DNA of 64,000 nt, from contig JBAIAA010000019.1 of assembly GCA_037893245.1 (NCBI GenBank), forward strand, positions 868,001 to 932,000, written 5' to 3'. Of this stretch, positions 8,650 to 63,161 are shown in pieces. The notes beneath the pieces are model-generated. The model had not been told where the DNA came from. It saw only the letters and a program-made list of their open reading frames with translations, and searched no databases. Positions within the stretch are counted from its first letter, which is position 1. Each line of letters starts with the position of its first letter. The translations under genes were made by a program, and so were the position numbers. This DNA is from Crossaster papposus (lineage: Eukaryota; Echinodermata; Asteroidea; Velatida; Solasteridae).

Positions 8650-8650
8650 C

Positions 8651-9045: not shown

Positions 9046-9273
9046 GATATCGAGGCTTTAATTTGCCTGGAAATCTATGCATCTTACCTACTTTAGGCAC
9101 TTGTGGCAATAGCCGAGACTGGACGAGCAAAAATCGTTATTAGATCTCCTTAGGGGTCGTTTATGGTCGATCCGCAGTGATAAAGACAAGAACGTAGGTG
9201 ATTGATTAAAAATACTGCTAATCTGTATTGGGGGAAGAGTGAACGAGATTTGTAGCAAGCGCCAATCTACAAT

Positions 9274-10037: not shown

Positions 10038-10101
10038 TTATTGAATTACGCAAAATGGAATCGGCCCAGAGTCAAACCATGTGGATCTGGCTTCGATCGT
10101 T

Positions 10102-42600: not shown

Positions 42601-45600
42601 GAGTTCCTATCGCTTAGTTCGCTGGAGCAGAATACTGGTTCCCCATTAATAGTCAGGATCCGAAGCTGGATGCCGAATTCCTTAAAAACTGGAAAAAAGG
42701 AGTCGAACATTAGAAACTAATCAGTCAGCCAAAACCATGTGTCCTACCGGTACAATGTTTTGCACCGCACCGATCATAGCAAGTAGAGATATGGTAAGTG
42801 GGAACTTGCCCGAGTTGGCTGGAACGAAACAATTTTGCATCAAGAACGAATGGCAGGTAAAAAGGAAGCTTGAAAATGACATTACCAAATCTTTACACTC
42901 TTAAAATCCCAGGGCTACAAAATCTTTGGTCAGATTAATATGACAACATCACAGGTTCCCCCGTTTCACTCCTGGGTGGGCAGAAGCAACAAGGTATCCC
43001 ACGTGGCCCCGGCGCCCCACGTGATGCACGAGATTGACGATTAACCAATCGGATGGCGGAGATTTATTCAGGGGTTGTATAATATTTGCTAGACAATACA
43101 AAACCCTTCAAATCCACCAATTTATATACATTACAACAATAGCAAATGATGTATGTGTATACCCTTTAATGGGAATGGAAGCAAAACATACCTGGCATTG
43201 AAGCAGATGTTGTCGTAGGTTGCATTGTGGGAGATCCTGAAAAAGTCAATGCAAGATCCGTTAAATTATGTTACCTGATACATGTATAGGTCATCAGCCT
43301 CCGTCTCAAAAATCATGCCACGCTATTTAATGACCAAGAGGAGTAATAACGGTTAGCGATTTTTTTGCAACACACATAGCTAGCTGGGAAATGTGTGATA
43401 TCATTGCAGCATGAGCAGTGGAACTCTTTTTGCGGGTTTCATCAATTTTAGGGTTGTTTTTCTTAATCGCCGCCAACGCTTTTTACCAGATTACTTATAT
43501 CCTGGTAACAAGGAGTGGTGGTCATTTTGAAAGGAAAACAAACCTGGTGAATATAACACCCAAAAAGCTGCCATCCTGCCATGCTATCACATGTTTTCCA
43601 TTTAATTGGGTGCATACCTTGACAAAAATCACCCTGGGCATTATTCTCATTTGATACCGACCAAACCCAGGCTAATGGCATTATAGTAAACTTTAGGTGA
43701 AATGATTTACGTATATACGAGACATATAAGTGATTATACAAACAGTCAACAATAACATAATATACAATTCTCCCGTTTCGCAATACGATGCGCCCCCATG
43801 TGATTTAATATGGTACAGGCTACTTAGCGCATTGAATCTTGGGGAAAAGTCGACATGCCAAATTAAAGGTGCGTATAATAATAAAGAAGCAACGAGTGAT
43901 AAATTACGTTGTCAATGGGTACATGCACTCTGGGGTCCACTCGCAAGTCCAACGCCCCATAGGTCCAACGCCAAATAGGTCCAACGCCCCATAGGTCCGA
44001 CGCCCCATATGTCCGACGCCTCATTAGTTCAGACTTATGAGGCGTCGGAACTATAAAGCTGAATACTATATAAGCCCGACGCCTCATAATTCCGAAATTT
44101 CTGATTTATAAAGCGTCGGATGTATGAGGCGTCGGACTTACGATACGGCCCCCGCCCCACAACCTCGGGCTGGACTTAAACTAGCCTTTAAACAAGGCCA
44201 CATGTCTGATAGACGCCGAGCGACTAAAAAGAGACTAATCGCGAAAACCTGAGTGAACGCCAATGCGAATTGCCCAGACAAGTGGCCTTTATCAATCTGG
44301 TTTGGATTTCTTATATTAACCTTTGTTTCCGACTTGAATCGCTACCGAAATGGTAGCGTCCAATCAGCGAACGTATCTCCGCGTGACGTCAGCTTATATT
44401 TGAGTTGGACTAGTTCATTTTACAAACAGGGAATGTCAAATCATGTCACTTACAATATTTAGCTCAAATCATCAGTTGCTTCCTAATTTATTGCAATTTT
44501 GCATGTAAAATAGATTTAAATGTGATCTCTTGTATTTATCATTCATATATTCAACTCAGAAGCAAAATTTATATACGTTTTTTTAGCTTGTCCTACATGC
44601 TTTGATATTGAACGAATCACGAACAAAGCCAACTGGAAGATCGCCGGTCTGATTGGGCGTATTGGCATGCTAATATGTATCTATGAATAATTCATGCCGA
44701 GCAGTGAAACCTACATTGCAAAAGGCCTCGTGACATTCGTCACTCGGTCGCGCGTTCACCCCGGGTATCTAGACTCATCTCAGCCGCTTAGCCAGAGTCA
44801 CGAGGCCTTGTCAAAAGGCTAGACTTAAACCTACAGCCTGCAGAATTACCCGCGCACTACGGAAGCTTGAAAATGCAATTATCTGATACGTATACCAGAC
44901 GATAACCGAGTGTTGATTTTATTCCCCAGTTGCTTTTACCAAAAATGGAAGAAATAGTTGTTCGTACTCGTGTTTGAGTCGAGAACGAGAAGGAAACGAA
45001 AGCATACCTGACAATGGAGCAGGTGTAGTCACAGGTTGCGACGTGGACGATCCTAAAAGGTCAATGTAAGGTACTTTTAAGTATTTTACCTGATATTATA
45101 AATACCTACGAGAGTTGATAGCTTTTGAATGGTCGAGACACGATCACGTGGAGAACATTATTTTGTAGAAATAGCCCGGGCTTTCAAAAATTAGAGCAAA
45201 TTCACTGTTCAATCCCTAAATAAAAAAATATATTTCTTTAAAGGAATAACATGGTGAGGACCCAGTCATTAACTGCGTGATAATGGACCAGGTTGGGGAT
45301 AACCGCTGGTAATGGACCTAGCCTTCGGTTCGGTCTAAAAACCATTGGTCATCCCCCAACCTGGTCCGTTATTTCGCAGTAATGACTAGGTTCTAACCCT
45401 GTTATGCCCTAAGTAAATTTAATGAAAAGATTTGCGCACATACCAGGGATATTGGTAATTACATAGGGTGGTAAAACATGCAACCACCAAAGATCTACAC
45501 GGATAGGAAATGTTGTCAAAAGGAAATTATACCCAAAACTCCCGATTCGGTATAGTGCCACTTTTGTGAACCAAGGTCGGTGACTCTAATTAGGATTATG

Positions 45601-48600
45601 GCACACAGTGAACATCCAAGACAAATAATGAACGTTTAGGAGTGCGATAGTATACAAATATTGACTGCTTTGAGTGGTATAGTAAAACTAGCCTCCCCAG
45701 GTGATCCATGGAGCATTTTATTTTCCCGAGGCGAAGCCGAGGGAAAATAGAATGCTCCATGGATCACCGAGGGAGGCTAGTTTGACTATACCGCGAAATA
45801 AAGCAGTCAATATTTGTTTTATAACACCTCACTCACATATTCTGCACAATTTAAGTTTCCTAAAGGTATAGTAATGACAAAAAATCTCCGAATTCAGTGT
45901 CAACTTACGTGCAAGCAGTGCGTTGTTTTCGAAAGAAATGTACGTTAAAATTGCGTTTGAAAGGGCACCCGACTATTTGTATCTTCGTTCCCTTTTTCTC
46001 GATCATACGTGTACTTTGTTGCCTTGATGAACGGGTGCGAGGGTGATAGAGCAATGTTTACGCAATGCACCGAAACACACGTCTGGGTTTCAGTCACGCT
46101 TTCGTTGCTATGCGCATAGTACGTGTGTTGCTATGCGCATAGTACTTTTTCAGAACGAGGCTGCGTGGTATAGTCTTTTTGGAGCGCAAGTAAAAAATTG
46201 TAAAATAGCAAGTGACACGTGACGCGCTCTCGGCCAATCAAGACACAGAATCTGTGAGTGAGGTGTTATAATAAGAATTATTTCATGAGGTGACAGATGG
46301 CATGTTCTATTTCAAGAGGCGAACCCCAGTGGAATAGAACATGACATCTGTCAACGAATGAATTTATTCTTTCCATCGCACGATTGTGAAACATTCATTA
46401 TATGTTGTATACAACACCTGAATACATTCTCGTCATCTGATTGGTAACTTGTAAACTGGTGCTTACATCATTGTAAAAAAAATGTAGCAACACTAATAGC
46501 TAATTAGAGAAGTTACTTTGGTTATATCAATACGCGCGCACCGTTTGATAGAAACATGTAATATAACGTGTTGGACGGTGCGGGTTCGCGTCGTGTGATG
46601 GGTTCAATAATTCAACGCACGTGATCGACGATCTACCAATCGGATGGCAGGGATTTATTCAGGCGTTGTATAATATTTGCTAGACAATACTAAACTCTTC
46701 AAATCCACCAATTTATATACATTACAACAATAGCAAATGATGTATGTGTATACCCTTTAATGGGAATGGAAGCAAAACATACCTGGCATTGAAGCAGATG
46801 TTGTCGTAGGTTGCATTGTGGGAGATCCTGAAAAAGTCAATGCAAGATCCGTTAAATTCTGTTACCTGATACATGCATAGGCCATCAGCCCCCATCTACA
46901 AATCATGCCACCGCTATTTAATGACTTAGAGGAGTAATAACGGTTAGCGATTTTTTGCAACACACATAGCTAGCTGGGAAATGTGTGATATCATTGCAGC
47001 ATGAGCAGTGGCAGCTTTTTGCGGGTTTCATCAATTTAGGGTTGTTTTTCTTAATCGCCGCCAACGCTTTTTACCAGATTACTTATATCCTGGTAACAAG
47101 GAGTGGTGGTCATTTTGAAAGGAAAACAAACCTGGTGAATATAACACCCAAAAAGCTGCCATCCTGCCATGCTATCACATGTTTTCCATTTAATGGGGTG
47201 CATACCTTGCCAAAAATCACCCTGGGCATTATTCTCATTTGATACCGACCAAACCCAGGCTAATGGCATTATAGTAAACTTTAAGTGAAATGATTTACGT
47301 ATATACGAGACATATAAGTGATTATACAAACAGTCAACAATAACATAATATACAATTCTCCCGTTTCGCAATACGATGCGCCCCCATGTGATTTAATATG
47401 GTACAGGCTACTTAGCGCATTGAATCTTGGGGAAAAGTCGACATGCCAAATTAAAGGTGCGTATAATAATAAAGAAGCAACGAGTGATAAATTACGTTGT
47501 CAATGGGTACATGCACTCTGGGGTCCGCTCGAAAGTCCAACGCCCCATAGGTCCAACGCCAAATAGGTCCGACGCCCCATAGGTCCGACGCCCCATATGC
47601 CCGACGCCTCATTAGTTCGACAATACAATTTACTTTTTGCCCGACGTCAGACTTATGAGGCGTCGGAACTATAAAGCTGAATACTATATAAGCCCGACGC
47701 CTCATAATTCCGAAATTTCTGATTTATAAAGCGTCGGATGTATGAGGCGTCGGACTTACGATACGGCCCCCGCCCCACAACCTCAGGCTGGACTTAAACC
47801 TACAGCCTGCAGAATTACGGCGCACTACGGAAGCTTGAAAATGCAATTATCTGATACGTATACCAGACGATAACCGAGTGTTGATTTTATTCCCCAGTTG
47901 CTTTTACCAAAAATGGAAGAAATAGTTGTTCGTACTCGTGTTTGAGTCGAGAACAAGAAGGAAACGAAAGCATACCTGACAATGGAGCAGGTGTATTCAC
48001 AGGTTGCGAAGTGGACGATCCTAGAAGGTCAATGTATGGTACTTTTAAGTATTTTACCTGATATTATAAATACCTACGAGAGTTGATAGCTTTTGAATGG
48101 TCGAGACTCGATCACGTGGAGGACATTATTTTGTAGAAATAGCCCGGGCTTTCAAAAAATAGAGCAAATTCACTGTTCAATCCCTAAATAAAAAAAAATA
48201 TTTCTTTAAAGGAATAACATGGTGAGGACCCGGTCATTAACTGCGTGATAATGGACCAGGTTGGGGATAACCGCTGGTAATGGACCTAGCCTTCGGTTCG
48301 GTCTAAAAACCATTGGTCATCCCCCAACCTGGTCCGTTATTTCGCAGTAATGACTAGGTTCTAACCCTGTTATGCCCTAAGTAAATTTAATGAAAAGATT
48401 TGCGCACATACCAGGGATATTGGTAATTACATAGGGTGGTAAAACATGCAACCTCCAAAGATCTACACGGATAGGAAATGTTGTCAAAAGGAAATTATAC
48501 CCAAAACTCCCGATTCGGTATAGTGCCACTTTTGTGAACCAAGGTCGGGGACTCTAATTAGGATTATGGCACACAGTGAACATCCAAGACAAATAATGAA

Positions 48601-51600
48601 CGTTTAGGAGTGCGATAGTATACAAATATTGACTGCTTTGAGTGGTATAGTAAAACTAGCCTCCCCAGGTGATCCATGGAGCATTTTATTTTCCCGAGGC
48701 GAAGCCGAGGGAAAATAGAATGCTCCATGGATCACCGAGGGAGGCTAGTTTGACTATACCGCAAAATAAAGCAGTCAATATTTGTTTTATAACACCTCAC
48801 TCCCATATTCTGCACAATTTAAGTTTCCTAAAGGTATAGTAATGACAAAAAAATCTCCGAATTCAGTGTCAACTTACGTGCAAGCAGTGCGTTGTTTTCG
48901 AAAGAAATGTACGTTAAATTTGCGTTTGAAAGGGCACCCGACTATTTGTATCTTCGTTCCCTTTTTCTCGATCATACGTGTACTTTGTTGCCTTGATGAA
49001 CGGGTGCGAGGGTGATAGAGCAATGTTTACGCAATGCACCGAAACACACGTCTGGGTTTCAGTCACGCTTTCGTTGCTATGCGCTTAGTACGTGTGTTGC
49101 TATGCGCATAGTACTTTTTCAGAACGAGGCTGCGTGGTATAGTCTTTTTGGAGCGCAAGTAAAAAATTGTAAAATAGCAAGTGACACGTGACGCGCTCTC
49201 GGCCAATCAAGACACAGAATCTGTGAGTGAGGTGTTATAATAAGAATTATTTCATGAGGTGACAGATGGCATGTTCTATTTCAAGAGGCGAACCCCAGTG
49301 GAATAGAACATGACATCTGTCAACGAATGAAATTATTCTTTCCATCGCACGATTGCGAAACATTCATTATTATGTTGTATACAACACCTGAATACATTCT
49401 CGTCATCTGATTGGTAACTTGTAAACTGGTGCTTACATCATTGTAAGAAAAATGTAGCAACACTAATAGTTAATTAGAGAAGTTACTTTGGTTATATCAA
49501 TACGCGCGCACCGTTTGATAGAAACATGTAATATAACGTGTTGGACGGTGCGGGTTCGCGTCGTGTGATGGGTTCAATAATTCAACGCACGTGATCGACG
49601 ATCCACCAATCGGATGGCAGGGATTTATTCAGGCGTTGTATAATATTTGCTAGACAATACTAAACTCTTCAAATCCACCAATTTATATACATTACAACAA
49701 TAGCAAATGATGTATGTGTATACCCTTTAATGGGAATGGAAGCAAAACATACCTGGCATTGAAGCAGATGTTGTCGTAGGTTGCATTGTGGGAGATCCTG
49801 AAAAAGTCAATGCAAGATCCGTTAAATTCTGTTACCTGATACATGCATAGGCCATCAGCCCCCATCTACAAATCATGCCACCGCTATTTAATGACTTAGA
49901 GGAGTAATAACGGTTAGCGATTTTTTGCAACACACATAGCTAGCTGGGAAATGTGTGATATCATTGCAGCATGAGCAGTGGCAGCTTTTTGCGGGTTTCA
50001 TCCGTTTTTAGAGTGTTTTTTGTTAAAATCACCGCCAACGCTTTTTTACCAGATTAATTATATCCTTGTAATAAAGAGTGGTGGTAATTTTAGAAGAAAA
50101 AAACTGATGACACCAAAAAAAAACTGCCACCCTGCAATGCTATCACAAGTTTTCCAATTAAAGGGGTGCATACCTTGCCAAAAATCACCCTGAGCATTAT
50201 TATAATTTGATACCTCATAGGTCCGACATAGGTCCGACGCCCCGTAGGTCCGACGCCCCATAGATCCGACGCCCCACATGACTGTCCGACGCCCCACATG
50301 TCCGACGCACCATTAGTCTGACAATTAAATTTACTTGTTGTCCGACGTCAGACTTATAAGGCGTCAGAACTATAAAGCTGAATACTATATAAGCCCGACG
50401 CCTCATAATTCTGAAATTTCGGACTTATAAGGCGTCGGATGTATGAGGCGTCGGACTTACGATGCGGGCCCCGCACCACACCCTCGGGCTGGACTTAAAC
50501 CTACAGCCTGCAGGGTTACGGCGCACTACGGAAGCTTGAAAATGCCATTATCTGATAAGTATACTAGACAATAACCGAGTGTTGATTTTTTTGCCCGAGT
50601 TGCTTTTACTAAAAATAGAGGAAATAGTTGTTTGTACTCGTGTTTGAGTCGAGAACGAGAAGGAAACAAAAACATACCTGACAATGGAGCAGTTGTAGTC
50701 ACAGGTTGCAACGTGGACAATCCTAAAAGGTCAATGTAAGGTACTTTTAAGTATTTTACCTGATATTAAAAATACCTTCGAGAGTTGATAGCTTCTGATT
50801 GGTCGAGACTCAATCACGTGGAGGACATTATTTTGTAGAAATAGCCCCGGCATTCAAAAATGAGAGCAAAATCAGTTTACTCCCTAAATAAAAAAGGTAT
50901 TTCTTAAAAGGAATTACAGGGTTAGTACCCGATCATTCATTGCGTAATAACGAACCAGGTTGGGGATACCGCTGGTAATGGACCTAGCCTTCGGTTCGGT
51001 CCAAACACCATTGGTCACTCCCCAACCTGGTTCGTTATTACGCAGTGATGACTGGGTCCTAACCCTGTTATGTCCTAAGTAAATTTAATGAGAAGATTTA
51101 TGCACATATTAGGCATATTGGTAATTATATAGGGTGGTAAAACATGCAACCTCATACTTCAACTATTCAAATATTTACACGGATAGGAAATGTTGTTAAC
51201 AGGAAAATAATACCCAAAACTCCCGATTCGGTATAGTTTGGTATTTTGTGAACCAAGGTCAGGGACTATTATTAGGATTATCGCACACAGTGAATATCCA
51301 ATGTTTAGAAGTGCGATAGTAATAATAATTTCATGAGGTGCGGGTTCGCGTGGCGTGATGGGTTCAATAATTCCAAGCACGTGATCGGTGATCGACGATC
51401 CACCAATCGGATGGCGTGGATTTATACAGGTGTTGTATAATATTTGCTAGACAATACTAAAACCCTTCACATCCACCAATATATATACATTACAACCTTA
51501 GAAAATGATGTATATGTATATCCTTTATTGGGAATGAAAGGAAAACATACCTGGTATTGAAGCAGATATTGTCGTAGGTTGCATTGTGGGAGATCCTGAA

Positions 51601-54600
51601 AAATTCAATGCAAGAAGCGTTACCTGATACATGTATAGGCCATCAGCCTCCGTCTAAACATTGGGCCAAGATGAGTAATAACGGTTAGCGATTTTTGGCA
51701 ACACACATAGCTAGCTGGGAAATGTGTGATATCATTGCAGCATGAGCAGTGGAAGCTTTTTGCGGGTTTTATCAGTTTTTGTTTTGTTCTTTTAATCACC
51801 GCCTTTTTTACCAGATTAATTATATCATGTAACAAGTAGCCGATTCGGTTCAGTAGTTTTAATTCAAGTGCCACTTTTGTGAACCAAGGTCGGGGACTCT
51901 AATTAGGATTATCACACAGTGAATATCCAAGACAAATAATGAATATTTAGGAGTGCGATGGTAAGAATGATTGTATGAGGTGACAGATGGCACGTTCTAT
52001 TTCAAGAGGCGAACCACAGTGGAATAGAACATGACATCTGTCAACGAATGAAATTATTCTTTCCATCGCACGATTGCGAAACATTCATTATTATGTTGTA
52101 TACAACACCTGAATACATTCTCGTCATCTGATTGGTAACTTGTAAACTGGTGCTTACATCATTGTAAGAAAAATGTAGCAACACTAATAGCTAATTAGAG
52201 AAGTTGTTTTGGTTATATCAATGCGCGCGCACCGTTTGATAAAAACATGTAATATAACGTGTTGGTCGGTGCGGGTTCGCGTCGTGTGATATGGGTCCAA
52301 TAATTCAACGCACGTGATCGACGATTCACCAATCGGATGACAGTGATTTATTCAGGCGTTAATTGTATAATATTTGCTAGACAATACTAAACCCTTCAAA
52401 TCCACCAATTTATATACATTACAACAATAGCAAATGATGTATGTGTATACCCTTTAATGAGAATGGAAGCAAAACATACCTGGCATTGAAGCAGATGTTG
52501 TCGTAGGTTGCATTGTGGGAGATCCTGAAAAAGTCAATGCAATTTCCGTTAAATTCTGTTACCTGATACATGTCGACGATGATCTCACGAAGTGACAAAA
52601 ATCTCTAATTCTGGAAAATATTCATCTCGAGATAATCGCATTTGAAGTTGGTCCTTTTTTCACAAGGTATTTTCGATTATTTTGCAGTAACAAAATTCAT
52701 TTGTTTTGCATTGATCAAAACTAAATACTTTGCTCTATGCTAACTCATACTCGTTTGTTAAAAACGTCTGTTAATTAAACAAAACATGTTAATACAACTG
52801 TTTTTGCACTTCGTGAGAACATGAAACGTGGAGCCTTAATTCACACATTACTCGTGCGTTTGTATACTGTTGTATGCACTTCGTGAGATTGTTCTACAAC
52901 TGTTTTTGAACTTCGTGAGAACATAAAACGCGGAGCCTTCACTCTTTATTCGTACGTTTGTATACTTAGTAACCCTAAATTAGCCATATATTGAGCCAAT
53001 CTGTGAATTTTTTTTAAAGAAGCTAATTTCAACTGATTTTGGTGGGTATGTTTATGGACAACTACCAACAAAAAGGAAGGAGAAATAGGGGTTGGGGAAC
53101 TTTTTTTATTAGAGGTCAAAGGTCATTGACCCCTGCCTAAATCACTAAAAATTATATTTCAGCAACAAAATATGGTATATATATGATCTTGGTGTCAAAA
53201 TGCACAGAATTACAAAATAAGATGACATCAAATAATTATTGACCCTTGGAACCAAATCCTGATCTTCGAAAATGAGGTCAAAGGTCAAAAAACTATTTTA
53301 TTACTAAAATGTCATATTTATAACAGGACAATTATCATAAAATAAAAATGAGCACAAACAAATCGGAGAGACTAATTTTAACTTACGTGGCGGGTATGGG
53401 AGTTATTATTTATTCTAGGAGCAGAGGTCAAAGGTCATTGACCCTGGACTAAAGCACTATAAATTGTATCTCGGCAACAACATATGTGCTTGTATGATCT
53501 TGGTGTCAAAATGGTCATAATTACACTGGAAGTAGAAAAATGTAAATTCTTGTGATATAAATGTAGGATACAAATTGACCGCCACATATGACCTTAAAGG
53601 TCAAAGGTCATTATTCGAAGCCCCATATTGAATCCACAAAGCACCACCCTAGAGATATACGTATAACATAAAACAACATGAATTATGTCTTTGTTTAAGA
53701 AGTGATTACTCATAACACCTAGTTAGCATACATGTACCCTGACTAGTTACCCCAGTGAAGTGAGATGTCCCAAAAGTTTCCTATTAATAAGAAGAGGAGT
53801 TTGGTGCATCTTGCAGAGAGTCTTGTATACAGCAGAGAGATTCGATCATCACACCCTAAGTCGGTATTTGGCGGCTTAATCAAGAGCGAAGTGACTGGAA
53901 CAACCGTATATGTACCCATTTAAAAGACTTTGAGGAGAGGGTTGAATTATTCAAGGACCAACTTAAAAAGCGCGGATACACAAACGAAGACCTAGCCCTT
54001 CCTCAAAGGGGCGAGCCTTCCGCGGACTCTAAGCGTGAACAAAACAAAAAAAACACACCACAATACCCCACTGGTGTTCGTCCTACCATACTACCCACGA
54101 GTCGCGCACCCAGCTCTCAAACGGGCCCTCCTCAAACACTGGCACTGGATTAGTGAAAACGAATACCTAAATACATGTAGGCTATTTGATACCCAACCCT
54201 TGGAATACAAACGGCACAAAAACATAAAATATGAACTTGTTCGATCTAGGACTAAAGCATCTCCACAATCCAACCAAGAAGAAAACAACCTGGATGAGGA
54301 GAATGTGCAAATCCTATTGGAACTATTGGAAGAACAAAACAATGATTACCAGATTAATTATATCATGTAACAAGTAGCCGATTCGGTTCAGTAGTTTTAA
54401 TTCAAGTGCCACTTTTGTGAACCAAGGTCGGGGACTCTAATTAGGATTATCACACAGTGAATATCCAAGACAAATAATGAATATTTAGGAGTGCGATGGT
54501 AAGAATGATTGTATGAGGTGACAGATGGCACGTTCTATTTCAAGAGGCGAACCACAGTGGAATAGAACATGACATCTGTCAACGAATGAAATTATTCTTT

Positions 54601-57600
54601 CCATCGCACGATTGCGAAACATTCATTATTATGTTGTATACAACACCTGAATACATTCTCGTCATCTGATTGGTAACTTGTAAACTGGTGCTTACATCAT
54701 TGTAAGAAAAATGTAGCAACACTAATAGCTAATTAGAGAAGTTGTTTTGGTTATATCAATGCGCGCGCACCGTTTGATAAAAACATGTAATATAACGTGT
54801 TGGTCGGTGCGGGTTCGCGTCGTGTGATATGGGTCCAATAATTCAACGCACGTGATCGACGATTCACCAATCGGATGACAGTGATTTATTCAGGCGTTAA
54901 TTGTATAATATTTGCTAGACAATACTAAACCCTTCAAATCCACCAATTTATATACATTACAACAATAGCAAATGATGTATGTGTATACCCTTTAATGAGA
55001 ATGGAAGCAAAACATACCTGGCATTGAAGCAGATGTTGTCGTAGGTTGCATTGTGGGAGATCCTGAAAAAGTCAATGCAATTTCCGTTAAATTCTGTTAC
55101 CTGATACATGTCGACGATGATCTCACGAAGTGACAAAAATCTCTAATTCTGGAAAATATTCATCTCGAGATAATCGCATTTGAAGTTGGTCCTTTTTTCA
55201 CAAGGTATTTTCGATTATTTTGCAGTAACAAAATTCATTTGTTTTGCATTGATCAAAACTAAATACTTTGCTCTATGCTAACTCATACTCGTTTGTTAAA
55301 AACGTCTGTTAATTAAACAAAACATGTTAATACAACTGTTTTTGCACTTCGTGAGAACATGAAACGTGGAGCCTTAATTCACACATTACTCGTGCGTTTG
55401 TATACTGTTGTATGCACTTCGTGAGATTGTTCTACAACTGTTTTTGAACTTCGTGAGAACATAAAACGCGGAGCCTTCACTCTTTATTCGTACGTTTGTA
55501 TACTTAGTAACCCTAAATTAGCCATATATTGAGCCAATCTGTGAATTTTTTTTAAAGAAGCTAATTTCAACTGATTTTGGTGGGTATGTTTATGGACAAC
55601 TACCAACAAAAAGGAAGGAGAAATAGGGGTTGGGGAACTTTTTTTATTAGAGGTCAAAGGTCATTGACCCCTGCCTAAATCACTAAAAATTATATTTCAG
55701 CAACAAAATATGGTATATATATGATCTTGGTGTCAAAATGCACAGAATTACAAAATAAGATGACATCAAATAATTATTGACCCTTGGAACCAAATCCTGA
55801 TCTTCGAAAATGAGGTCAAAGGTCAAAAAACTATTTTATTACTAAAATGTCATATTTATAACAGGACAATTATCATAAAATAAAAATGAGCACAAACAAA
55901 TCGGAGAGACTAATTTTAACTTACGTGGCGGGTATGGGAGTTATTATTTATTCTAGGAGCAGAGGTCAAAGGTCATTGACCCTGGACTAAAGCACTATAA
56001 ATTGTATCTCGGCAACAACATATGTGCTTGTATGATCTTGGTGTCAAAATGGTCATAATTACACTGGAAGTAGAAAAATGTAAATTCTTGTGATATAAAT
56101 GTAGGATACAAATTGACCGCCACATATGACCTTAAAGGTCAAAGGTCATTATTCGAAGCCCCATATTGAATCCACAAAGCACCACCCTAGAGATATACGT
56201 ATAACATAAAACAACATGAATTATGTCTTTGTTTAAGAAGTGATTACTCATAACACCTAGTTAGCATACATGTACCCTGACTAGTTACCCCAGTGAAGTG
56301 AGATGTCCCAAAAGTTTCCTATTAATAAGAAGAGGAGTTTGGTGCATCTTGCAGAGAGTCTTGTATACAGCAGAGAGATTCGATCATCACACCCTAAGTC
56401 GGTATTTGGCGGCTTAATCAAGAGCGAAGTGACTGGAACAACCGTATATGTACCCATTTAAAAGACTTTGAGGAGAGGGTTGAATTATTCAAGGACCAAC
56501 TTAAAAAGCGCGGATACACAAACGAAGACCTAGCCCTTCCTCAAAGGGGCGAGCCTTCCGCGGACTCTAAGCGTGAACAAAACAAAAAAAACACACCACA
56601 ATACCCCACTGGTGTTCGTCCTACCATACTACCCACGAGTCGCGCACCCAGCTCTCAAACGGGCCCTCCTCAAACACTGGCACTGGATTAGTGAAAACGA
56701 ATACCTAAATACATGTAGGCTATTTGATACCCAACCCTTGGAATACAAACGGCACAAAAACATAAAATATGAACTTGTTCGATCTAGGACTAAAGCATCT
56801 CCACAATCCAACCAAGAAGAAAACAACCTGGATGAGGAGAATGTGCAAATCCTATTGGAACTATTGGAAGAACAAAACAATGATCTAAGAAATGGCTCTC
56901 AAGACTACAACAAAATAAATAAGTCAAGATGCCTTCCTTTCGATCAATACCTCCCAAAAGCCGGTATTTGTCCTTGCAATCTGTCATATAAACCGACACA
57001 CAAATAAAAACAAGGAAAAAGAAAAGTAAACTGAAAGAATGGTGACTGATGAAGTGCATAATATAGCACAAAAAATATGCCCTGCTCCCCTTCCAAAAAA
57101 GGAGAGAAAAAGGGGACTGCATATTATTACCGGTAATAATCAATCACTGAGTGAACTAAAAACAAAGGACCACTGTTGCAATACAAAAACCACAACCCCC
57201 CCCCCAAAAAAAAAAAAGAGTTCAGAATTACGCTCCGGAGAGGCCAGTCAAACAACCACTCTCTAGCATACCGGGCATACTCACTAGATAACGTACAATT
57301 ACAGATTTAACTCTGCCAGTCACAAATATAATCCATATGATACTTGTCAGCAGAACCGCGTCTCAAGAAAATAACGAAAAACACGGAGGGGTTCTCTTGA
57401 AACGTGTACACGTAACCCCCCCCCCCCCTCCTACCGATTGCAATCTTGCAGAACAAATGTGGCCAGAACTGACTTCCCAGAAGCGTATATCACTAAGAAA
57501 AAACTTACATTGAGAATTACGCTCTGGGCAATATAGTTACGCAACCACACTGCTGGCATACCAGCAAATCATAAATATACAGATTTATCTCTGCAGACCA

Positions 57601-60600
57601 GCAACAAACATACAATCCTATGATACTTCACGCAGCAGAACTGTGGCAGCATCTCCAAAACAATAATGAAAACGATGAGAAATAGTTCTGACTTGTGACA
57701 ACTTCCATAAACACCCTCCCCTTCCCATAGTAGAATGAGTTCTGATTCACTGCAGCTAACTCTGGGATTGATCAAACAAACAACAACAAATACACTGATC
57801 ATTCCTTGAAGTATGCCTGCATAAACCGGTTTCCCTTTGCTATTTTCTTGCAAAAGAACTTCATTTTTAACTAAAAAACCTAATAGTCTCACAGAAAAAG
57901 AAAACAATTCCACATAACCCAGCGTTAGACGTCCTTCAATTTAATGTCCTTCCCATGTGACCGAGAATCGTTTTAATAATAAAAAACGTAGGCTGAATGT
58001 ATGATTACGCTCCTTCCCAATAAACACCAAACATGATTATAAATGCACATATACTTTACATACACAAACTATTTGACACTAATGAACTTTAACCCCCCCC
58101 CCCCCCGCCCAATTGCTCATTTTGACCTTTAACCTCGTATTTTGGTGGTGAAGAATCCATTTCATATTGTGTTTGTCTCCTAGTATAATTCTGTGCATTT
58201 GGACACCAAGATCATCTAGGCCTATGAAAAACATACTGCTGCTGAGATACATTTATAATGTTCTAGTGCAGCGTCAAAGACCTTTGACCCTCAGAAAGGG
58301 AATTTCCCCCTCCTTCTTTGCTCTTGGAATAAATAATAACCCCCATACCCGCCACAATAAGTTGAAATTAGCCTCTTAGATTTTTTTTTGTTCATGGTAA
58401 TTTTCCTGTTATTTTACTAATATGACATTTTAGTAATACGTCTATTTTTGACCTTTGACCTCTTTTCTAAGGGTCAGAAGTTATTCTATGTCATCTTCTT
58501 TCATAATCCTGTGCATTTTGACACCAAGATCATCTATATACCATATTTTGTTGCTATAAATATGACATTTTAGTAATAAAATTGTTTTGTGACCTTTGAC
58601 CTCATTTTCGGAGGTCAGGATTTAGTCCCAAGGGTTAATAATTATTTGATGTCACCTTCTATTGTAATTCTGTGCATTTTGACACCAAGATCATCTATAT
58701 ACCATATTTTGTTGCTGAAATATAATTTTTAGGGATTTGGGCAGGGGTCAATAACCTTTACCTCTAATAAAAAAAATATTCCCAACCCCTATCCCTCCTT
58801 CCTTTTTGTTGGTAGTTGTCCATACCCATACCTACCCAAATCAGTTGAAATTAGCTTCTTTTAAATTGTTTCACAGATGAACCTTAAGTTAGGGATACTA
58901 ACTGTTGTATGCACTTCGTGAGATTGCCGTTCTGTGTACAAGTATTACATTTTACTTCGAGCGCGCACGCGTATGTTCTATTTCAACATCGTACACGTGT
59001 GCATGCACGTGTATGCCCCCATCGTAGACGCGAGCAAAACAAGAAATGATCGCCAGGCCCTGCTAACGAGGTAACTGGTTTTTTTCTCTTCGTGAGATCA
59101 TTTTAAAGTCTTCTGCACTTCGTGAGAACAAAAAACATGTAGTTCGGCCTTTTTGTCAAATGTGTGTTTACGCTAATTAAAAAAGTAAACAAGATTTCGC
59201 TTTGATACATGGTCAAGCTGTTCCTTGAAACAAATGTGACAAAAAGGCTAGTAAAACTCAAACATCGAACAATATTTGATTTCGGAGGTTTTCTGCACTT
59301 CGTGAGTTCGTCAACGATGTATAGGCCATCAGCCTCCGTCTAAAATTGGGCCACAGGTATCACATGACCAAGATGAGTAATAACGGTTAGCGATTTTTGG
59401 CAACACACATAGCTAGCTGGAAAATGTGTGATATCATTGCAGCATGAGCAGTGGAAGCTTTTTGCGGGTTTTATCAGTTTTTGTTTTGTTCTTTTAATCA
59501 CCGCCAATGTTTTTTTTACCAGATTAATTATAGCATGTAACAAGTAGCCGATTCGGTTCAGTAGTTTTAATTCAAGTGCCACTTTTGTGAACCAAGGTCG
59601 GGGACTCTAATTAGGATTATCGCACACAGTAAACATCCAAGACAAATAATGAATATTTAGGAGTGCGATGGTAATAATGATTGTATGAGGTGACAGATGG
59701 CACGTTCTATTTCACGAGGCGAACCCGAGTGGAATAGAACATGACATCTGTCAACGAATGAAATTATTCTTTCCATCGCACGATTGTGAAACATTCATTA
59801 TATCTTGTATACAACACCTGAATACATTCTCGTCATCTGATTGGTAACTTGTAAACTGGTGCTTACATCATTGTAAACAAAAATGTAGCAACACTAATAG
59901 CTAATTAGAAAAGTTGTTTTGGTTATATCAATACGCGCGCACCGTTTGATAGAAACATGTAATATAACGTGTTGGACGGTGCGGATTCGCGTCGTGTGAT
60001 GGGTCCAATAATTCAACGCACGTGATCGACGATCCACCAATCGGATGACAGGGATTTATTCAGGCGTTGTATAATATTTGCTAGACAATACAAAACCCTT
60101 CCAATCAACCAATAGCAAATGATGTATGTGTATACCCTTTAATGGGAACGGAAGCAAAACATACCTGGCATTGAAGCAGATGTTGTCGTAGGTTGCATTG
60201 TGGGAGATCCTGAAAAAGTAAATGCAAGATCCGTTAAATTATGTTACCTGATACATGTATAGGCCATCAGCCTCCATCTAAAAATTATGCCACCGCTATT
60301 TAATGACTTAGAGGAGTAATAACGGTTAGCGATTTTGTGCAACACACATAGCTTGCTGGGAAATGTGTGGTATCATTGCAGCATGAGCAGTGGAAGCTTT
60401 TTGCGGGTTTCATCAATTTTTAGGGTTGTTTTTCTTAATCGCCGCCAACGCTTTTTACCAGATTAATTATATCCTGGTAACAAGGAGTGGTGGTCATTTT
60501 GAAAGGAAAACAAACCTGGTGAATATAACACCCAAAAAGCTGCCATCCTGCCATGCTATCACATGTTTTCCATTTAATGGGGTGTTTACCTTGCCAAAAA

Positions 60601-63161
60601 TCACCCTGGGCATTATTCTCATTTGATACCGACCAAACCCAGGCTAATGGCATTATAGTAAATCTTAGGTGGAATGATTTACGTATATACGAGACATATA
60701 GGTGATTATACAAACAGTCAACAATAACATAATATACAATTCTCCCGTTTCGCAATACGATGCGCCCCCATGTGATTTAATATGGTACAGGCTACTTAGC
60801 GCACTGAATCTTGGGGAAAAGTCGACATGCCAAACCAAAGGTGCGTATAATAATAAAGAAGCAACGAGTGATAAGTTACGTTGTCAATGGGTACATGCAC
60901 TCTGGGGTCCACTCGCAAGTCCAACGCCCCATAGGTCCGACGCCCCATAGGTCCGACGCCCCATAGGTCCGACGCCCCATAGGTCCGACGCCCCATAGGT
61001 CCGACGCCCCATAGGTCCGACGCCCCATAGGTCCGACGCCCCATAGGTCCGACGCCCCATAGGTCCGACGCCCCATAGGTCCGACGCCCCATAGGTCCGA
61101 CGCCCCATAGGTCCGACGCCCATTATGTCCGACGCCCATTATGTCCGACGCCTCATTTGTTCGACAATAACATTTACTTTTTGCCCGACGTAAGACTTAT
61201 AAGGCGTCGGAACTATAAAGCTGAATACTATATAAGCCCGAATTTCCGAAATGTCTGACTTATAAGGCGTCGGATGTATGAGGCGTCGGACTTACGATAC
61301 GGCCCCCGCCCCACAACCTCGGGTTGAACTTAAACCTACAGCCTGCAGAATTACGGCGCACTACGGAAGCTTGAAAATGCACTTTTCTGATACGTATACC
61401 AGACGATAACCGAGTGTCGATTTTATTCCCCAGTTGCTTTTACCAAAAATAGAGGAAATAGTTGTTCGTACTCGTGTTTGAGTCGAGAACGAGAAGGAAA
61501 CGAAAGCATACCTGACAATGGAGCAGGTGTAGTCACAGGTTGCGACGTGGACGATCCTAGAAGGTCAATGTAAGGTACTTTTAAGTATTTTACCTGATAT
61601 TATAAATACCTACGAGAGATGATAGCTTCTGATTGGTCGGGACTCGATCACGTGGAGGGCATTATGTTGTAGAAATAGCCCCAGCTTTCAAAAATTAGAG
61701 CAAATTCACTGTTTACTTCCTAAATAAAAAAGATATTTCTTAAAATGAATAACAGGGTGAGGACCCGGTCATTTACTGCATGATAACGTACCAGGTTAGG
61801 GATAACCGGTGGTAATGGACCTAGCCTTCGGTTCGGTCCAAACACCATTGGTCATCCCCCAACCTGGTAAGTTATTTTGCAGTAATGACTAGGTCCTAAC
61901 CCTGTTATGCCCTAAGTAAATTTAATGAAAAGATTTACACACATATCAGGCATATTGGTAATTATATAGGGTGGTAAAACATGCAACCTCCTACTTCAAC
62001 TATTCAAAGATCTACACGGATAGGAAATGTGCTCGATAATCCACCAATCGGATGGCGGGATTTAGTCAGGCGTTGTATATTATTTGCTAGACAATACTAA
62101 ACCCTTCCAATCCACCAATTTATATACATTACAACAATAGCAAATGATGTATGTGTATACCCTTTAATGGGAATTATAGGATAACATACCTGGCATTGAA
62201 GCAGATGTTGTCGTAGGTTGCATTGTGGGAGATCCTGAAAAAATCAATGCAAGATCCGTTAAATTCTGTTACTTGATACATGTATAGGTCATCAGCCTCC
62301 ATCTAAATATTATGCCACGCTATTTAATGACCAAGAGGAGTAATAACGGTTAGCGATTTTTTGCAACACATATAACTATAGCTCGGAATGTGTGATACCA
62401 TTGCAGCCTGAGCAATTGCAGCTTTTTGCGGGTTTTATCAGTTTTAGAATGTTTTTGTTTAAATCGCCGCCATTGCTTTTTACCAGATTAATTATATCAC
62501 GGTACAATCAGTGGTGGTCATTTTGGAAACAAACAAACAAAAAAACGGCCATCTTGCAATGATATCACATGTTTTCCATTTAATGGGGTGCATACCTTGA
62601 CAAAAATCACCCTGGGCATTATTCTCATTTGATACCGACCAAACCCAGGCTAATGGCATTATAGTAAATCTTAGGTGGAATGATTTACGTATATACGAGA
62701 CATATAGGTGATTATACAAACAGTCAACAATAACATAATATACAATTCTCCCGTTTCGCAATACGATGCACCCCCATGTGATTTAATATGGTACAGACTA
62801 CTTAGCGCACTGAATCTTGGGGAAAAGTCGACATGCCAAATTAAAGGTGCGTATAATAATAAAGAAGCAACGAGTGATTCGGTTCGGTCCAAACACCATT
62901 GGTCATCCCCCAACCTGGTAAGTTATTTCGCAGTAATGACTAGGCCCTAACCCTGTTATGCCCTAAGTAAATTTAATGAGAAGATTTACGCACGGATGGC
63001 GTGGATTATTTGCTAGACAATACTAAAACCCTTTACATCCACCAATATATACACATTACAACAATAGCAAATGATGTATATGTATATCCTTTATTGGGAA
63101 TGAAAGGAAAGCATACCTGGCATTGAAGCAGATGTTGTCGTCGGTTGCATTGTGGGAGATC
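36466..63161 (-). CDS. membrane-anchored mucin-like gene (partial, multi-exon)
   Basis: Gene-level entry; exons are listed separately. 5' to 3' on the minus strand: 13 mini-exons of 45 bases encoding Ser/Thr/Pro-rich 15-residue modules (63161 down to 43192), SEA domain in two exons (42688-42561 and 41126-40901), an EGF-like exon (37045-37005), and a transmembrane exon (36647-36466). Phases fit at every tested junction: mini-exons 1-1, first SEA exon 1-0, second SEA exon 0-1, EGF exon 2-1, transmembrane exon 1-0. Only the SEA to EGF step lacks an exon (needed phase 1 to 2), presumably the first half of the EGF domain. The order PTS region, SEA, EGF, TM, tail is that of surface mucins such as the MUC3/MUC17 type. 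The signal peptide lies beyond the right edge. The role is inferred: a heavily O-glycosylated cell-surface protein. Confidence 0.75.
37005..37045 (-). CDS. mucin-like gene: EGF-like exon (C-terminal half)
   Basis: 41 bases between TTTTTGCAG and GTGGGT. It reads CMDGFNGSRCETI, matching the EGF pattern C-x2-G-F-x4-C. It begins with one base completing a codon and ends with one base (G) that joins AG of the next exon to give Glu. The phase match with the transmembrane exon supports both calls. The preceding Cys residues of the domain must come from an exon not found. Confidence 0.7.
37371..37488. mobile_element. fold-back element, FB4 family
   Basis: The ends GTGCGATGG and CCATTGCAC are inverted, with inner arms GGTGACAGATG / CATCTGTCACC. 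It is a diverged relative of 51953-52071. Confidence 0.65.
38874..39300. repeat. GAGTC pentamer-rich repeats
   Basis: Runs of (GAGTC) at about 38891-38945 and 39204-39287, including five consecutive units near 39259-39285. The segment between them is non-repetitive. It is flanked on both sides by related sequence (GTGACTCG ... / ... GTGACTAGAG). Confidence 0.7.
40217..40290 (-). mobile_element. tRNA-like SINE head
   Basis: The minus strand has an A-box-like TGTAAGCGCAGCGG and a B-box-like GGGTTTGATTCC (40235-40224) at tRNA-like spacing. There is no acceptor-stem pairing, so it is more likely a SINE remnant than a tRNA gene. Confidence 0.4.
40540..40880 (-). mobile_element. tRNA-derived SINE, copy 4 (minus strand)
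   Basis: Same family as 15061-15421 in reverse. It carries a perfect B box GGTTCGAATCC (minus strand, near 40813-40803) and the GGGCAAGGCACTTTGTCAC body. The ATT-rich end lies at 40540. It sits 20 bases downstream of the second SEA exon, in the intron. Confidence 0.75.
40901..41126 (-). CDS. mucin-like gene: SEA domain exon 2
   Basis: 226 bases. The acceptor is CTTTGTAG before 41126 and the donor is ACAA/GTACGT after 40901. It reads VLHAIRITVRTNDVEEFEVT, SFRCGSVIANGVARYP and so on to PEATVVVT (75 codons), ending in phase 1. SFRCGSVIANG aligns with the SEA signature around the autoproteolytic G-S bond (G-S-V-x-x), so Gly-Ser cleavage during folding is plausible. It joins SEA exon 1 exactly in phase 0. 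Confidence 0.8.
41127..42560. other. intron between the two SEA exons
   Basis: Contains a G-rich repeat start (GTGGCGGCGCTACGG, 41351-41365, then a G12 run) and a short stretch near 42090-42180 that is GC-rich. No further exon is required by phase between the two SEA exons. Confidence 0.5.
42561..42688 (-). CDS. mucin-like gene: SEA domain exon 1
   Basis: 128 bases. The acceptor is CCTTTTTTCCAG before 42688 and the donor is GCG/GTATGA after 42561. With the G from an upstream mini-exon it reads VFKEFGIQLRILTINGEP, VFCSSELSDRNSQAFQTLAS and DIQNA. This has the SEA N-terminal half pattern: an amphipathic strand, then S-x-x-F-x-x-L helix residues. It starts in phase 1, compatible with the mini-exons, and ends in phase 0, compatible with SEA exon 2. 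Confidence 0.8.
42689..43191. other. intron upstream of the SEA domain
   Basis: No exon was seen. The right part (from about 43035, ACCAATCGGATGGCGGAGAT) is the first unit edge of the tandem array. Confidence 0.5.
43192..43236 (-). CDS. mucin mini-exon, type 1 (copy 1)
   Basis: 45 bases, phase 1-1. The acceptor is TTTTTCAG and the donor is CAG/GTATGT. It encodes SPTMQPTTTSASMP plus a Gly completed across the junction. Seven of 15 residues are Ser or Thr and three are Pro. It is the exon nearest the SEA domain. Confidence 0.75.
44182..44821. mobile_element. short Mutator-like element, 9-bp target duplication
   Basis: Starts TAGCCTTTAAACAAGGCC and ends with the inverted GGCCTTGTCAAAAGGCTA. 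It is flanked by an exact 9-bp GACTTAAAC (44173-44181, 44822-44830). Paralogous units at 47791-47799 and near 50494 hold a single GACTTAAAC without the element, proving insertion; the unit at 61328 has a one-base variant. The termini resemble those of 4676-6121 (TAGCCTTGGTCAAGGCG). The interior has a hairpin CGCTACC/GGTAGCG, then GTCCAATCAGCG and TGACGTCA, the same CCAAT plus CRE combination as in the larger element. A second inverted pair, AAAAGGCCTCGTGAC / GTCACGAGGCCTTG, lies near the right end. There is no coding sequence. Confidence 0.85.
45008..45052 (-). CDS. mucin mini-exon, type 2 (copy 1)
   Basis: 45 bases, phase 1-1. The acceptor is CCTTTTAG and the donor is CAG/GTATGC. It encodes SSTSQPVTTPAPLS plus a junction Gly. 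It is homologous to type 1 and aligns without gaps. Confidence 0.75.
45245..45405. mobile_element. fold-back element FB1 (copy 1)
   Basis: Inverted arms of about 60 bases: AATAACATGGTGAGGACC ... ACCAGGTTGGGGAT pairs with ATCCCCCAACCTGGT ... GTTATG-side sequence. The loop is GACCTAGCCTTCGGTTCGGTC, itself partly self-complementary. Confidence 0.75.
45655..45816. mobile_element. fold-back element FB2 (copy 1)
   Basis: Arms of about 73 bases: CAAATATTGACTGCTT ... TAGCCTCCC ... GATCCATGGAGCATT ... TTTTCCC paired with its reverse complement, around a GAGGCGAAGCCGAG loop. Confidence 0.8.
45821..46269. mobile_element. TIR element FB3 (copy 1)
   Basis: About 450 bp with ends ATAACACCTCACTCACA and TGTGAGTGAGGTGTTAT, inverted and exact. 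The interior is less AT-rich, includes two GTTGCTATGCGCATAGTAC units, and has an open frame of about 77 codons in copy 2 with no recognisable domain. It directly abuts FB2. The FB2-FB3 pair lies inside an FB4 element. Confidence 0.75.
46783..46827 (-). CDS. mucin mini-exon, type 1 (copy 2)
   Basis: Identical in sequence to copy 1, with the same splice signals. Confidence 0.75.
47976..48020 (-). CDS. mucin mini-exon, type 2 (copy 2)
   Basis: Encodes SSTSQPVNTPAPLS (Thr to Asn at one site). The acceptor is CCTTCTAG. The frame is intact. Confidence 0.75.
48213..48373. mobile_element. fold-back element FB1 (copy 2)
   Basis: Duplicate of 45245-45405 in the second array unit. Confidence 0.75.
48623..48784. 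mobile_element. fold-back element FB2 (copy 2)
   Basis: Duplicate of 45655-45816 in the second array unit. Confidence 0.8.
48789..49238. mobile_element. TIR element FB3 (copy 2)
   Basis: Duplicate of 45821-46269, nearly identical. Confidence 0.75.
49753..49797 (-). CDS. mucin mini-exon, type 1 (copy 3)
   Basis: Identical in sequence to copy 1, with splice signals intact. Confidence 0.75.
50678..50722 (-). CDS. mucin mini-exon, type 2 (copy 3)
   Basis: Encodes LSTLQPVTTTAPLS. It is more diverged than the other type-2 exons but has the same length, phase and splice sites. The surrounding unit is also more diverged. Confidence 0.7.
50912..51071. mobile_element. fold-back element FB1 (copy 3)
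   Basis: Arms pair better here than in copies 1 and 2: ACAGGGTTAGTACCC at the left against GGGTCCTAACCCTGT at the right. Confidence 0.75.
51551..51595 (-). CDS. mucin mini-exon, type 1 (copy 4)
   Basis: Encodes SPTMQPTTISASIP (two changes to Ile). The acceptor is AATTTTTCAG. Frame and phase are intact. Confidence 0.7.
51953..52071. mobile_element. fold-back element FB4 (copy 1)
   Basis: Ends GTGCGATGG and CCATCGCAC; arms TGACAGATGGCACGTTCTAT / ATAGAACATGACATCTGTCA. Uninterrupted copies also lie at 54491-54609 and 59663-59781. At 45.6 and 48.6 kb the same element is split by FB2 and FB3. Confidence 0.8.
52480..52524 (-). CDS. mucin mini-exon, type 1 (copy 5)
   Basis: Identical to copy 1. 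It lies in the first half of the 2,538-bp duplication. Confidence 0.75.
52572..52965. repeat. CTTCGTGAG-motif block (interrupted copy, left part)
   Basis: Starts with inverted CTCACGAAG (52602-52610), then direct GCACTTCGTGAGA or similar at about 52808, 52875 and 52913. It is repeated at 55110-55503. The right part is 58902-59310. The uninterrupted paralogue is at 63194-64000. Confidence 0.7.
53113..53610 (+). promoter_or_regulatory. cluster of four DR1 nuclear-receptor-like sites
   Basis: AGGTCAAAGGTCA, a perfect direct repeat of AGGTCA with one-base spacing, occurs at 53113, 53275, 53425 and 53598. DR1 is the consensus for HNF4, RXR and PPAR-type receptors. The sites sit in imperfect repeats inside the element arm; binding is not shown. 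The cluster is duplicated exactly at 55651-56148. Confidence 0.45.
53917..54346 (+). pseudogene. Penelope-like RT C-terminal remnant, truncated
   Basis: Same sequence as 56455-56884. The frame runs past the junction into unrelated array DNA. Confidence 0.5.
54491..54609. mobile_element. fold-back element FB4 (copy 2)
   Basis: Exact duplicate of 51953-52071 through the 2,538-bp duplication. Confidence 0.8.
55018..55062 (-). CDS. mucin mini-exon, type 1 (copy 6)
   Basis: Exact duplicate of copy 5, created by the 2,538-bp tandem duplication. Confidence 0.75.
55651..56148 (+). promoter_or_regulatory. second copy of the DR1-like cluster
   Basis: AGGTCAAAGGTCA at 55651, 55813, 55963 and 56136, copied from 53113-53610 by the tandem duplication. 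Confidence 0.45.
56455..57007 (+). pseudogene. Penelope-like reverse transcriptase, C-terminal part, frameshifted
   Basis: The frame from 56455 reads HLKDFEERVELFKDQLKKRG, then YTNEDL, resembling the thumb-proximal segment of Penelope-like RTs (R-x3-L-x3-F-x2-RGY). At an A8 run (56584-56591) the frame changes, and the second frame gives LVFVLPYYPRVAHPALKRAL, LKHWHWI, then PLEYKRHKNIKYELVRS. This matches the Y-x-P ... KHW ... P-x-x-Y-R-R-x-N-L-x-x-x-L-V pattern that follows the RT domain in those elements. It ends at 57007 after a short Cys-containing tail (RCLPFDQYLPKAGICPC). The catalytic RT core is missing and a GIY-YIG domain was not seen. Confidence 0.55.
57222..57800. repeat. imperfect tandem repeat, about 290-bp units
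   Basis: Units at about 57222-57511 and 57512-57800 share GAATTACGCTC, ACAGATTTA ... CTCTGC, ATGATACTT, GCAGAACYG and AATAACGAAAA-type blocks. The segment lies inside the Penelope-like element and contains C runs at 57198-57206 and 57416-57428. Confidence 0.55.
58125..58901 (-). repeat. right inverted arm of the Penelope-like element
   Basis: Reverse-orientation relative of 55504-56165, with internal repeats of a GACACCAAGATCATCTATAT unit. Perfect inverted DR1 motifs TGACCTTTGACCT lie at 58449-58461 and 58590-58602. Confidence 0.65.
58902..59310. repeat. CTTCGTGAG-motif block (interrupted copy, right part)
   Basis: Matches 63599-64000. CTTCGTGAG occurs at about 58915, 59088, 59118 and 59298, with GAGCGCGCACGCG near 58968. 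Confidence 0.7.
59663..59781. mobile_element. fold-back element FB4 (copy 3)
   Basis: Same family; arm pairing is slightly better in the loop region (CACGAGGCGAACCCGAGTGG). Confidence 0.8.
60165..60209 (-). CDS. mucin mini-exon, type 1 (copy 7)
   Basis: Identical to copy 1; one base differs in the intron beside the acceptor. Confidence 0.75.
60919..61157. repeat. 16-bp minisatellite, 15 units
   Basis: GTCCGACGCCCCATAG repeats with an exact 16-base period from 60919 to 61143 (the first unit has GTCCAACG; the last units have CATTAT). Paralogous sites have far fewer units (about 43939-44020, 47535-47605, 50219-50310). Immediately to the right the motif appears inverted (GGCGTCGGA) at about 61203, 61265 and 61281. 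Confidence 0.9.
61512..61556 (-). CDS. mucin mini-exon, type 2 (copy 4)
   Basis: Encodes SSTSQPVTTPAPLS, the same as type-2 copy 1. The acceptor is CCTTCTAG. Confidence 0.75.
61747..61908. mobile_element. fold-back element FB1 (copy 4)
   Basis: Same structure as the other copies. A truncated right half of the same element also occurs near 62878-62960. Confidence 0.7.
62190..62234 (-). CDS. mucin mini-exon, type 1 (copy 8)
   Basis: Identical to copy 1, with splice sites intact, although the flanking intron is more diverged (TATAGGATAACATACCT). Confidence 0.75.
63117..63161 (-). CDS. mucin mini-exon, type 1 (copy 9)
   Basis: One silent difference from copy 1 (CCT to CCG for Pro). It is the most 5' mini-exon in the window; more may lie beyond the edge. 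Confidence 0.75.

Follow-up and report, generated by a model that had tools for sequence, protein, structure and literature searches.

In the sea star Crossaster papposus, a stretch of 64,000 nucleotides of contig JBAIAA010000019.1 (here C19; the entire stretch analysed is referred to as the window) contains a series of 45-base segments that read as very short, serine-, threonine- and proline-rich exons. The question raised by this locus is whether these segments encode a mucin domain in which each protein repeat corresponds to a separate exon and, if so, how such an array changes in length and what is conserved in it.

The mini-exon array and the surrounding gene

All thirteen 45-base segments reported in a preliminary description of this DNA were located at positions 43192-63161 on the minus strand, nine of type A and four of type B. 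Each has an AG acceptor and a GT donor, is exactly 45 bases long, is in phase 1-1 and contains no stop or indel, in full agreement with the reported number, splice signals and shared phase. The claim that the copies are identical stands for seven of the nine type A copies and two of the four type B copies, which match the respective reference exactly, but not for the others, which are off by 1 and 2 bases (type A) and by 2 and 3 bases (type B). With phase 1 at both ends, each mini-exon contributes exactly 15 residues to the protein, a glycine followed by 14 others; the type A repeat reads GSPTMQPTTTSASMP and the type B repeat reads GSSTSQPVTTPAPLS. Serine or threonine accounts for 7 of the 15 residues in the reference forms, and in the commonest forms 10 of the 15 are serine, threonine or proline, a composition that qualifies the encoded region as a PTS-rich tandem-repeat domain. 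With two more type A copies beyond the window, the array totals 15 mini-exons. The exons of the gene are listed below from the linker that precedes the array to the 3' end (window positions unless prefixed by the contig; the first number is the lowest base).

C19:934424-934468, minus strand: linker exon of 45 bases, phase 1-1, GMNANGCGTATDVTT, directly before the array
C19:932518 and C19:933583: two type A mini-exons, upstream of the window
63117..63161, minus strand: type A mini-exon (GSPTMQPTTTSASMP), the first of the array within the window
62190..62234, minus strand: type A mini-exon
61512..61556, minus strand: type B mini-exon (GSSTSQPVTTPAPLS)
60165..60209, minus strand: type A mini-exon
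55018..55062, minus strand: type A mini-exon, in the second copy of a perfect tandem duplication
52480..52524, minus strand: type A mini-exon, in the first copy of the perfect tandem duplication
51551..51595, minus strand: type A mini-exon, variant (GSPTMQPTTISASIP)
50678..50722, minus strand: type B mini-exon, variant (GLSTLQPVTTTAPLS)
49753..49797, minus strand: type A mini-exon
47976..48020, minus strand: type B mini-exon, variant (GSSTSQPVNTPAPLS)
46783..46827, minus strand: type A mini-exon
45008..45052, minus strand: type B mini-exon
43192..43236, minus strand: type A mini-exon, the last of the array
42561..42688, minus strand: SEA exon 1, phase 1 in and phase 0 out; Pfam SEA 25.2 bits, E 1.8e-5 jointly with SEA exon 2 (cut-off 26.4)
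40901..41126, minus strand: SEA exon 2, contains FRCGSVIANG; scored jointly with SEA exon 1
38688..38778, minus strand: EGF-like exon, first part; Pfam EGF_2 15.2 bits (cut-off 22.1)
37005..37045, minus strand: EGF-like exon, second part (CMDGFNGSRCETI)
36466..36647, minus strand: transmembrane segment and start of the cytoplasmic tail; hydrophobic run recognized by eye

The order read is thus an LDL-receptor B-like exon, the 45-base linker, the mini-exons, two SEA exons, two EGF-like exons and a transmembrane exon, and judging by these sequence features the gene looks like that of a membrane mucin, which supports the earlier proposal of a Ser/Thr/Pro-rich mucin domain in a gene of mucin layout. 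The linker precedes the first mini-exon in all five gene copies found in the genome (see below), shows no obvious likeness to type A or type B, and reads GMNANGCGTATDVTT in four copies and GMNANGGGTATDVTT in the one on contig C26, each being at most one base away from that of C19. The LDL-receptor class B (YWTD)-like exon, a weak match (Pfam 14.4 bits, cut-off 21), lies upstream of the linker in the same five copies and presumably belongs to the same transcript as the array.

The Pfam SEA family was matched in all four copies tested (E 1.8e-5 to 5.5e-5; 23.7-25.2 bits, below the cut-off of 26.4), and EGF_2 scored 15.2-16.4 bits, under its cut-off of 22.1. The decapeptide FRCGSVIANG is unchanged across the four copies compared; it includes a GSVI motif that we take to resemble the SEA self-cleavage site, and the putative SEA domain may be self-cleaving. 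A sequence search against solved structures retrieved no SEA domain, the single match (E 0.26) being a putative cytochrome c. Two length differences occur in the 19 copies read of the five 3' exons, both of 3 bases and hence in frame. For the SEA, EGF and transmembrane exons, pN/pS is 0.6 to 1.5 in five pairs with few changes (exons of unequal length left out), and in the sixth pair 3 nonsynonymous changes stand against no synonymous one; with pN/pS near 1, these exons themselves carry no sign of purifying selection. A protein search with the concatenated mucin, SEA, EGF and transmembrane parts detected no homologue in other species at E up to 0.001, and a six-frame search for the SEA family gave no match in 14 control genomes. 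The six-frame search missed the split domain of Crossaster as well, so neither search demonstrates absence.

Elsewhere in the window, on the minus strand at 7192-10662 and 29792-34116, there are frames that by eye resemble a tyrosine-recombinase retroelement and a non-LTR retrotransposon.

Five gene copies and their exon numbers

The genome searched comprises 1.02 Gb in 1841 contigs, the window being part of contig C19. Allowing up to 3 mismatches to the 35-base cores, at least 35 matches to type A and at least 13 to type B were found in the 1.02 Gb, and the control, the core pattern read backwards, gave 0 matches in the same 1.02 Gb. All of these at least 48 matches lie within five gene copies:

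C19: 15 mini-exons
C26: 9 mini-exons
C468: 17 mini-exons
C585, near 575-589 kb: 3 mini-exons
C585, near 1.11 Mb: 4 mini-exons

As linker and SEA exons lie on either side of the three mini-exons at C585:575-589 kb, these are treated as belonging to a single gene. The idea of a dispersed repeat or transposon mimicking an exon was rejected, since both cores were found in only five places of the 1.02 Gb. The SEA-region exons were found at seven places, namely with the five arrays and at two additional C585 sites. Near the first of these, at 758 kb, there is no mini-exon within 3 mismatches; the second, at base 58, starts at the contig end, its upstream part lying outside the contig.

Base-by-base reading covered 47 of the 48 mini-exons (all except the match at C585:1109417). 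The 47 are 45 bases long and open in phase 1-1, no gap appears in any of them when aligned, and both AG and GT are present in 46; in one B exon, at C585:1106431, the acceptor AG has become AT. The assertion that no copy carries a stop, an indel or a lost splice site is therefore correct for the window, with its 13 copies, but does not extend to the whole family. The gene copy with the lost acceptor (C585:1104596-1115846) is probably decaying, as its second SEA exon matches at 61% and stops fall inside the matched stretch.

Three additional searches bear on this inventory. A blind scan of three array regions for phase 1-1, Cys-free, Ser/Thr/Pro-rich segments of 30-150 bases with a pyrimidine tract yielded 37 matches, all of them known mini-exons and all 45 bases long (4 of the 41 present were missed), and none on the opposite strand of the same regions; further exon types concealed in the introns were thus not revealed. 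The first exon scans were ungapped, so a gapped short-word BLAST search was run separately for broken copies: over 271,604 bases and at E up to 1, it detected no indel-broken exon, and its nine extra matches were ungapped, of 10-25 bases each, with no broken exon among them. Diverged mini-exons with up to 16 mismatches were also sought over 271,604 bases, and none was found beyond the 47.

As for other contigs of the assembly, C8 has COX1 matches near 2872001-2873343 and 5208663-5210009 that are free of stops, while 13 TGA codons occur in the mitochondrial COX1 of contig C1841; C8 is probably bacterial, a symbiont or a contaminant in the assembly of the animal. The C1841 gene gives a sensible translation if AAA is read as Asn, AGA/AGG as Ser and ATA as Ile (NCBI table 9), a code common to echinoderms and flatworms. 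By eye, nad1 lies on the opposite strand before COX1 with tRNA genes between, and nad4L, COX2 and ATP8 follow; such a mitochondrial gene order is that of echinoderms, the inverted nad1-tRNA part being as in sea stars, and ATP8 is as a rule missing from flatworms. The mitochondrial sequence by itself thus points most likely to an echinoderm, perhaps a sea star.

The number of mini-exons differs among the gene copies by whole exon-plus-intron units, in keeping with the suggestion that the mucin domain changes its length in this manner. Intron-by-intron comparison of C19 and C468 delineated a shared run of six matching introns (95-100% identity); C468 contains a multi-exon block in a second copy, and five C19 exons are absent from it. 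Within C19, a two-exon unit is repeated with 97% identity over 2.4 kb, which looks like the product of unequal exchange, and a single A exon is included in a perfect tandem duplication (period 2538; copies of 2539 bases, 100% identical, sharing one base at the junction). The latter, spanning 51808-56884, is either recent or an assembly fault; in its structure it looks like the outcome of end-joining, of replication slippage or of such a fault. The duplicated copies and the minisatellites of the window introns are as follows.

51808..54346, no strand assigned: perfect tandem duplication, first copy, one A exon
54346..56884, no strand assigned: perfect tandem duplication, second copy, one A exon
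60919..61127, plus strand: 16-base minisatellite GTCCGACGCCCCATAG, about 15 units, in the intron after a B exon
50232..50316, plus strand: 16-base minisatellite, in the intron after a B exon
47535..47615, plus strand: 16-base minisatellite, in the intron after a B exon
43947..44027, plus strand: 16-base minisatellite, in the intron after a B exon

The minisatellite is present in the intron following each of the 13 B exons read; the simplest account is that all B exons derive from a single B-A unit and that the minisatellite was carried along with it. It was also considered as a specific cause of the duplications and rejected in this role, on the grounds that three more stretches are located outside the arrays and that the repeat is dispersed genome-wide (at least 437 forward and at least 601 reverse pattern positions, overlapping).

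Exon conservation and competing explanations

Comparison of substitution rates in exons and introns across copies, proposed in the preliminary description as a check, gave a split result: excess conservation was found for type A and not for type B, and it is evident at the nucleotide level, not clearly at the protein level. On a type A tree built from the flanking intron of 34 copies, with changes counted by parsimony, the exon shows 9 changes over its 45 positions. In 241 overlapping flank windows, each of 45 well-filled columns, the lowest count is 33 and the median 66. Sixteen disjoint closest pairs, in which each copy was used at most once (103 of the 561 pairs, with fewer than 150 comparable flank sites, having been dropped beforehand), differ at 5 of 720 exon sites, compared to 24 expected from the flanks (P = 3e-6). 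The zone of low change takes in the splice signals as well, reaching to about -18 at the acceptor and to +5 at the donor, and the donor sequence gtatg (+1 to +5) is without any change. Gaps are absent from the type A exon, whereas within 100 columns there are 5 distinct ones on the left and 7 on the right. Disrupting changes (a stop or a lost splice dinucleotide) number 0 in type A versus 4.8 expected without constraint from the near-flank rate (Poisson probability 0.008). In type B, the exon has 7 changes and 69 of 383 flank windows are equally low, six disjoint pairs have 2 differences versus 3.2 expected (P 0.38), and 1 disrupting change was seen versus 1.2 expected by the same calculation.

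The type A changes comprise 8 nonsynonymous ones, compared to 28.5 expected, and 1 synonymous one, compared to 11.4 expected, both expectations being derived from the rate of change inside 100 columns. Protection of synonymous sites thus equals or exceeds that of the remaining sites. Selection on the peptide alone would not leave such a pattern, which points to a constraint acting on RNA or DNA, plausibly on splicing: most simply, exons this short would have to be recognised by the splicing machinery from their own bases, and for this reason could remain nearly unchanged even at synonymous sites. Homogenisation of just the type A exon bases may also be the source of the low rate of change. An A/C-rich splicing enhancer beyond the amino-acid demand was not supported (P 0.38 for A and 0.95 for B). 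A tentative suggestion, which we put forward with considerable reserve, is that what is kept constant in the type A cassette is the RNA rather than the protein, the mini-exon carrying the splicing information that lets duplicated units work at once; it is similarly conceivable, if somewhat doubtful, that the mucin peptide then needs nothing but its composition. If true, exon number would serve as a dial by which mucin length could be set immediately.

Taken together, the anatomy of the gene, the exon phases, the SEA matches, the restriction to five places, the whole-unit differences and the conservation of type A make it very probable that the locus is a membrane-bound mucin gene, with an O-glycosylated stalk encoded one repeat per exon. 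The mini-exons would be spliced into the mRNA and the repeats O-glycosylated, the stalk being predicted to sit between an N-terminal LDL-receptor-B (YWTD-like) region with the linker and a C-terminal SEA/EGF-like/transmembrane part. Unequal exchange or end-joining would duplicate or remove units of one exon (2.5 kb), of two (about 3 kb) or of several, and as the unit is symmetric, the frame stays intact when one is gained or lost.

The same symmetry lends itself to another explanation, namely that the mini-exons form a regulated, alternatively spliced cassette array, mainly a splicing device and less a record of how length evolved, from which one gene would produce many stalk lengths per animal. 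Every mini-exon is symmetric, so any subset could be skipped in frame; alternative splicing has likewise been proposed for chicken Muc13 in the account given in PMC1552070, and transcripts of SmPoMuc, a mucin of Schistosoma mansoni, differ in repeat number according to PMC2576457. The donor ends of type A, however, are uniform, with no grading into weak and strong exons, and we regard this explanation as possible but rather unlikely. That the array is instead dead or dying, its mini-exons being relics carried by duplication and spliced in no longer, appears very improbable: type A exons with their splice signals have changed about 4 to 7 times less than the adjoining intron and are gap-free next to gapped flanks, and both splice sites are kept in 46 of the 47 copies, even though one copy has lost its acceptor, in the C585 gene near 1.11 Mb with the stop-bearing second SEA exon match, type B shows neither excess conservation nor a deficit of disrupting changes, and pN/pS is near 1 from the SEA to the transmembrane exons.

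A separate concern is that the variation in exon number, and especially the perfect 2538-base duplication, might in part be an artefact of diploid assembly, through uncollapsed haplotypes or repeats. The C19, C26 and C468 copies are collinear around the array, a distant probe gives equal scores in C26 and C468, the two 2539-base copies are 100% identical, and in 3-kb bins the best-matching pieces of C26 and C468 are 81-100% identical to C19, with gaps; the three copies may be haplotypes or paralogues. Nevertheless, the arrays also differ in exon composition, with distinguishable variants at matched places, and units that are 95-98% identical lie within one contig, where assembling the same sequence twice would need many errors. 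A partly artefactual origin of the variation therefore seems unlikely.

Relationship to known repeated-exon genes

Extended regions lengthened by repetition of short symmetric exons are exemplified by the human IgG3 hinge, the PEVK exons of titin and frog FIM-B.1. With respect to mucins, the preliminary description contrasted the array with the usual single large exon containing an internal tandem repeat; this contrast in layout stands, but the implied rarity has to be qualified, because the one-exon-per-repeat layout is not new and was preceded by chicken Muc13 and SmPoMuc, as the texts cited below describe them. Chicken Muc13 is a membrane mucin with PTS, SEA, EGF and transmembrane parts, the mucin domain of which is encoded by many near-identical exons, at least 12, with one 20-residue repeat each (Lang, Hansson and Samuelsson 2006; PMC1552070). 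According to the same text, the exon arrangement is backed by one EST, the authors proposed that the length changes via recombination or splicing, and the mucin domain of the zebrafish homologue is said to span several exons. As far as this description goes, the Crossaster gene resembles chicken Muc13 in its mucin repeats, in its putative SEA, EGF-like and transmembrane parts and in the correspondence of one repeat to one symmetric exon, whereas the repeats are of 20 residues in chicken and of 15 residues and two types in Crossaster; the LDL-receptor-B region of the Crossaster gene has no counterpart mentioned for chicken Muc13 in the relevant part of PMC1552070.

SmPoMuc is described as a multigene family in which a 27 bp repeat exon is contained in a unit of about 1 kb present in up to 20 copies, with exon types r1, r2 and r3, a gene of 15 exons, microsatellites between the units and copy number that varies between genes (PMC2576457). 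The shared features, on this description, are a tiny repeat exon per genomic unit, more than one exon type, a multigene family, simple tandem repeats between the units and gene-to-gene differences in copy number. In contrast, the relevant part of that text mentions no SEA or transmembrane layout for SmPoMuc, and the Crossaster gene has putative SEA and transmembrane exons. The two also differ in how exons and introns diverge: SmPoMuc introns are reported as homogenised with exon differences persisting (PMC2576457), and unlike this, Crossaster type A exons diverge less than the introns, type B showing no difference. Spider silk genes, according to the same source, likewise consist of repeated exon-plus-intron units under concerted evolution, the introns being more homogenised than the exons; these encode a different protein class, and what they share with Crossaster is that protein repeats map to exon-plus-intron units.

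Among the literature titles listed, none names such a mini-exon array in an echinoderm, which is not a claim of absence from print. New with respect to the precedents are the two-type 15-residue repeat, the upstream LDL-receptor-B-like part and the reversed exon/intron contrast. The one-exon-per-repeat mucin layout is thereby extended from chicken, with zebrafish mentioned, and schistosomes to an echinoderm. Carrying between 3 and 17 repeat exons, the five gene copies provide a natural series for the study of frame-safe protein lengthening by exon duplication, and the splicing needs of very short exons can be tested on an array in which strongly conserved type A exons occur beside type B exons without detectable constraint.
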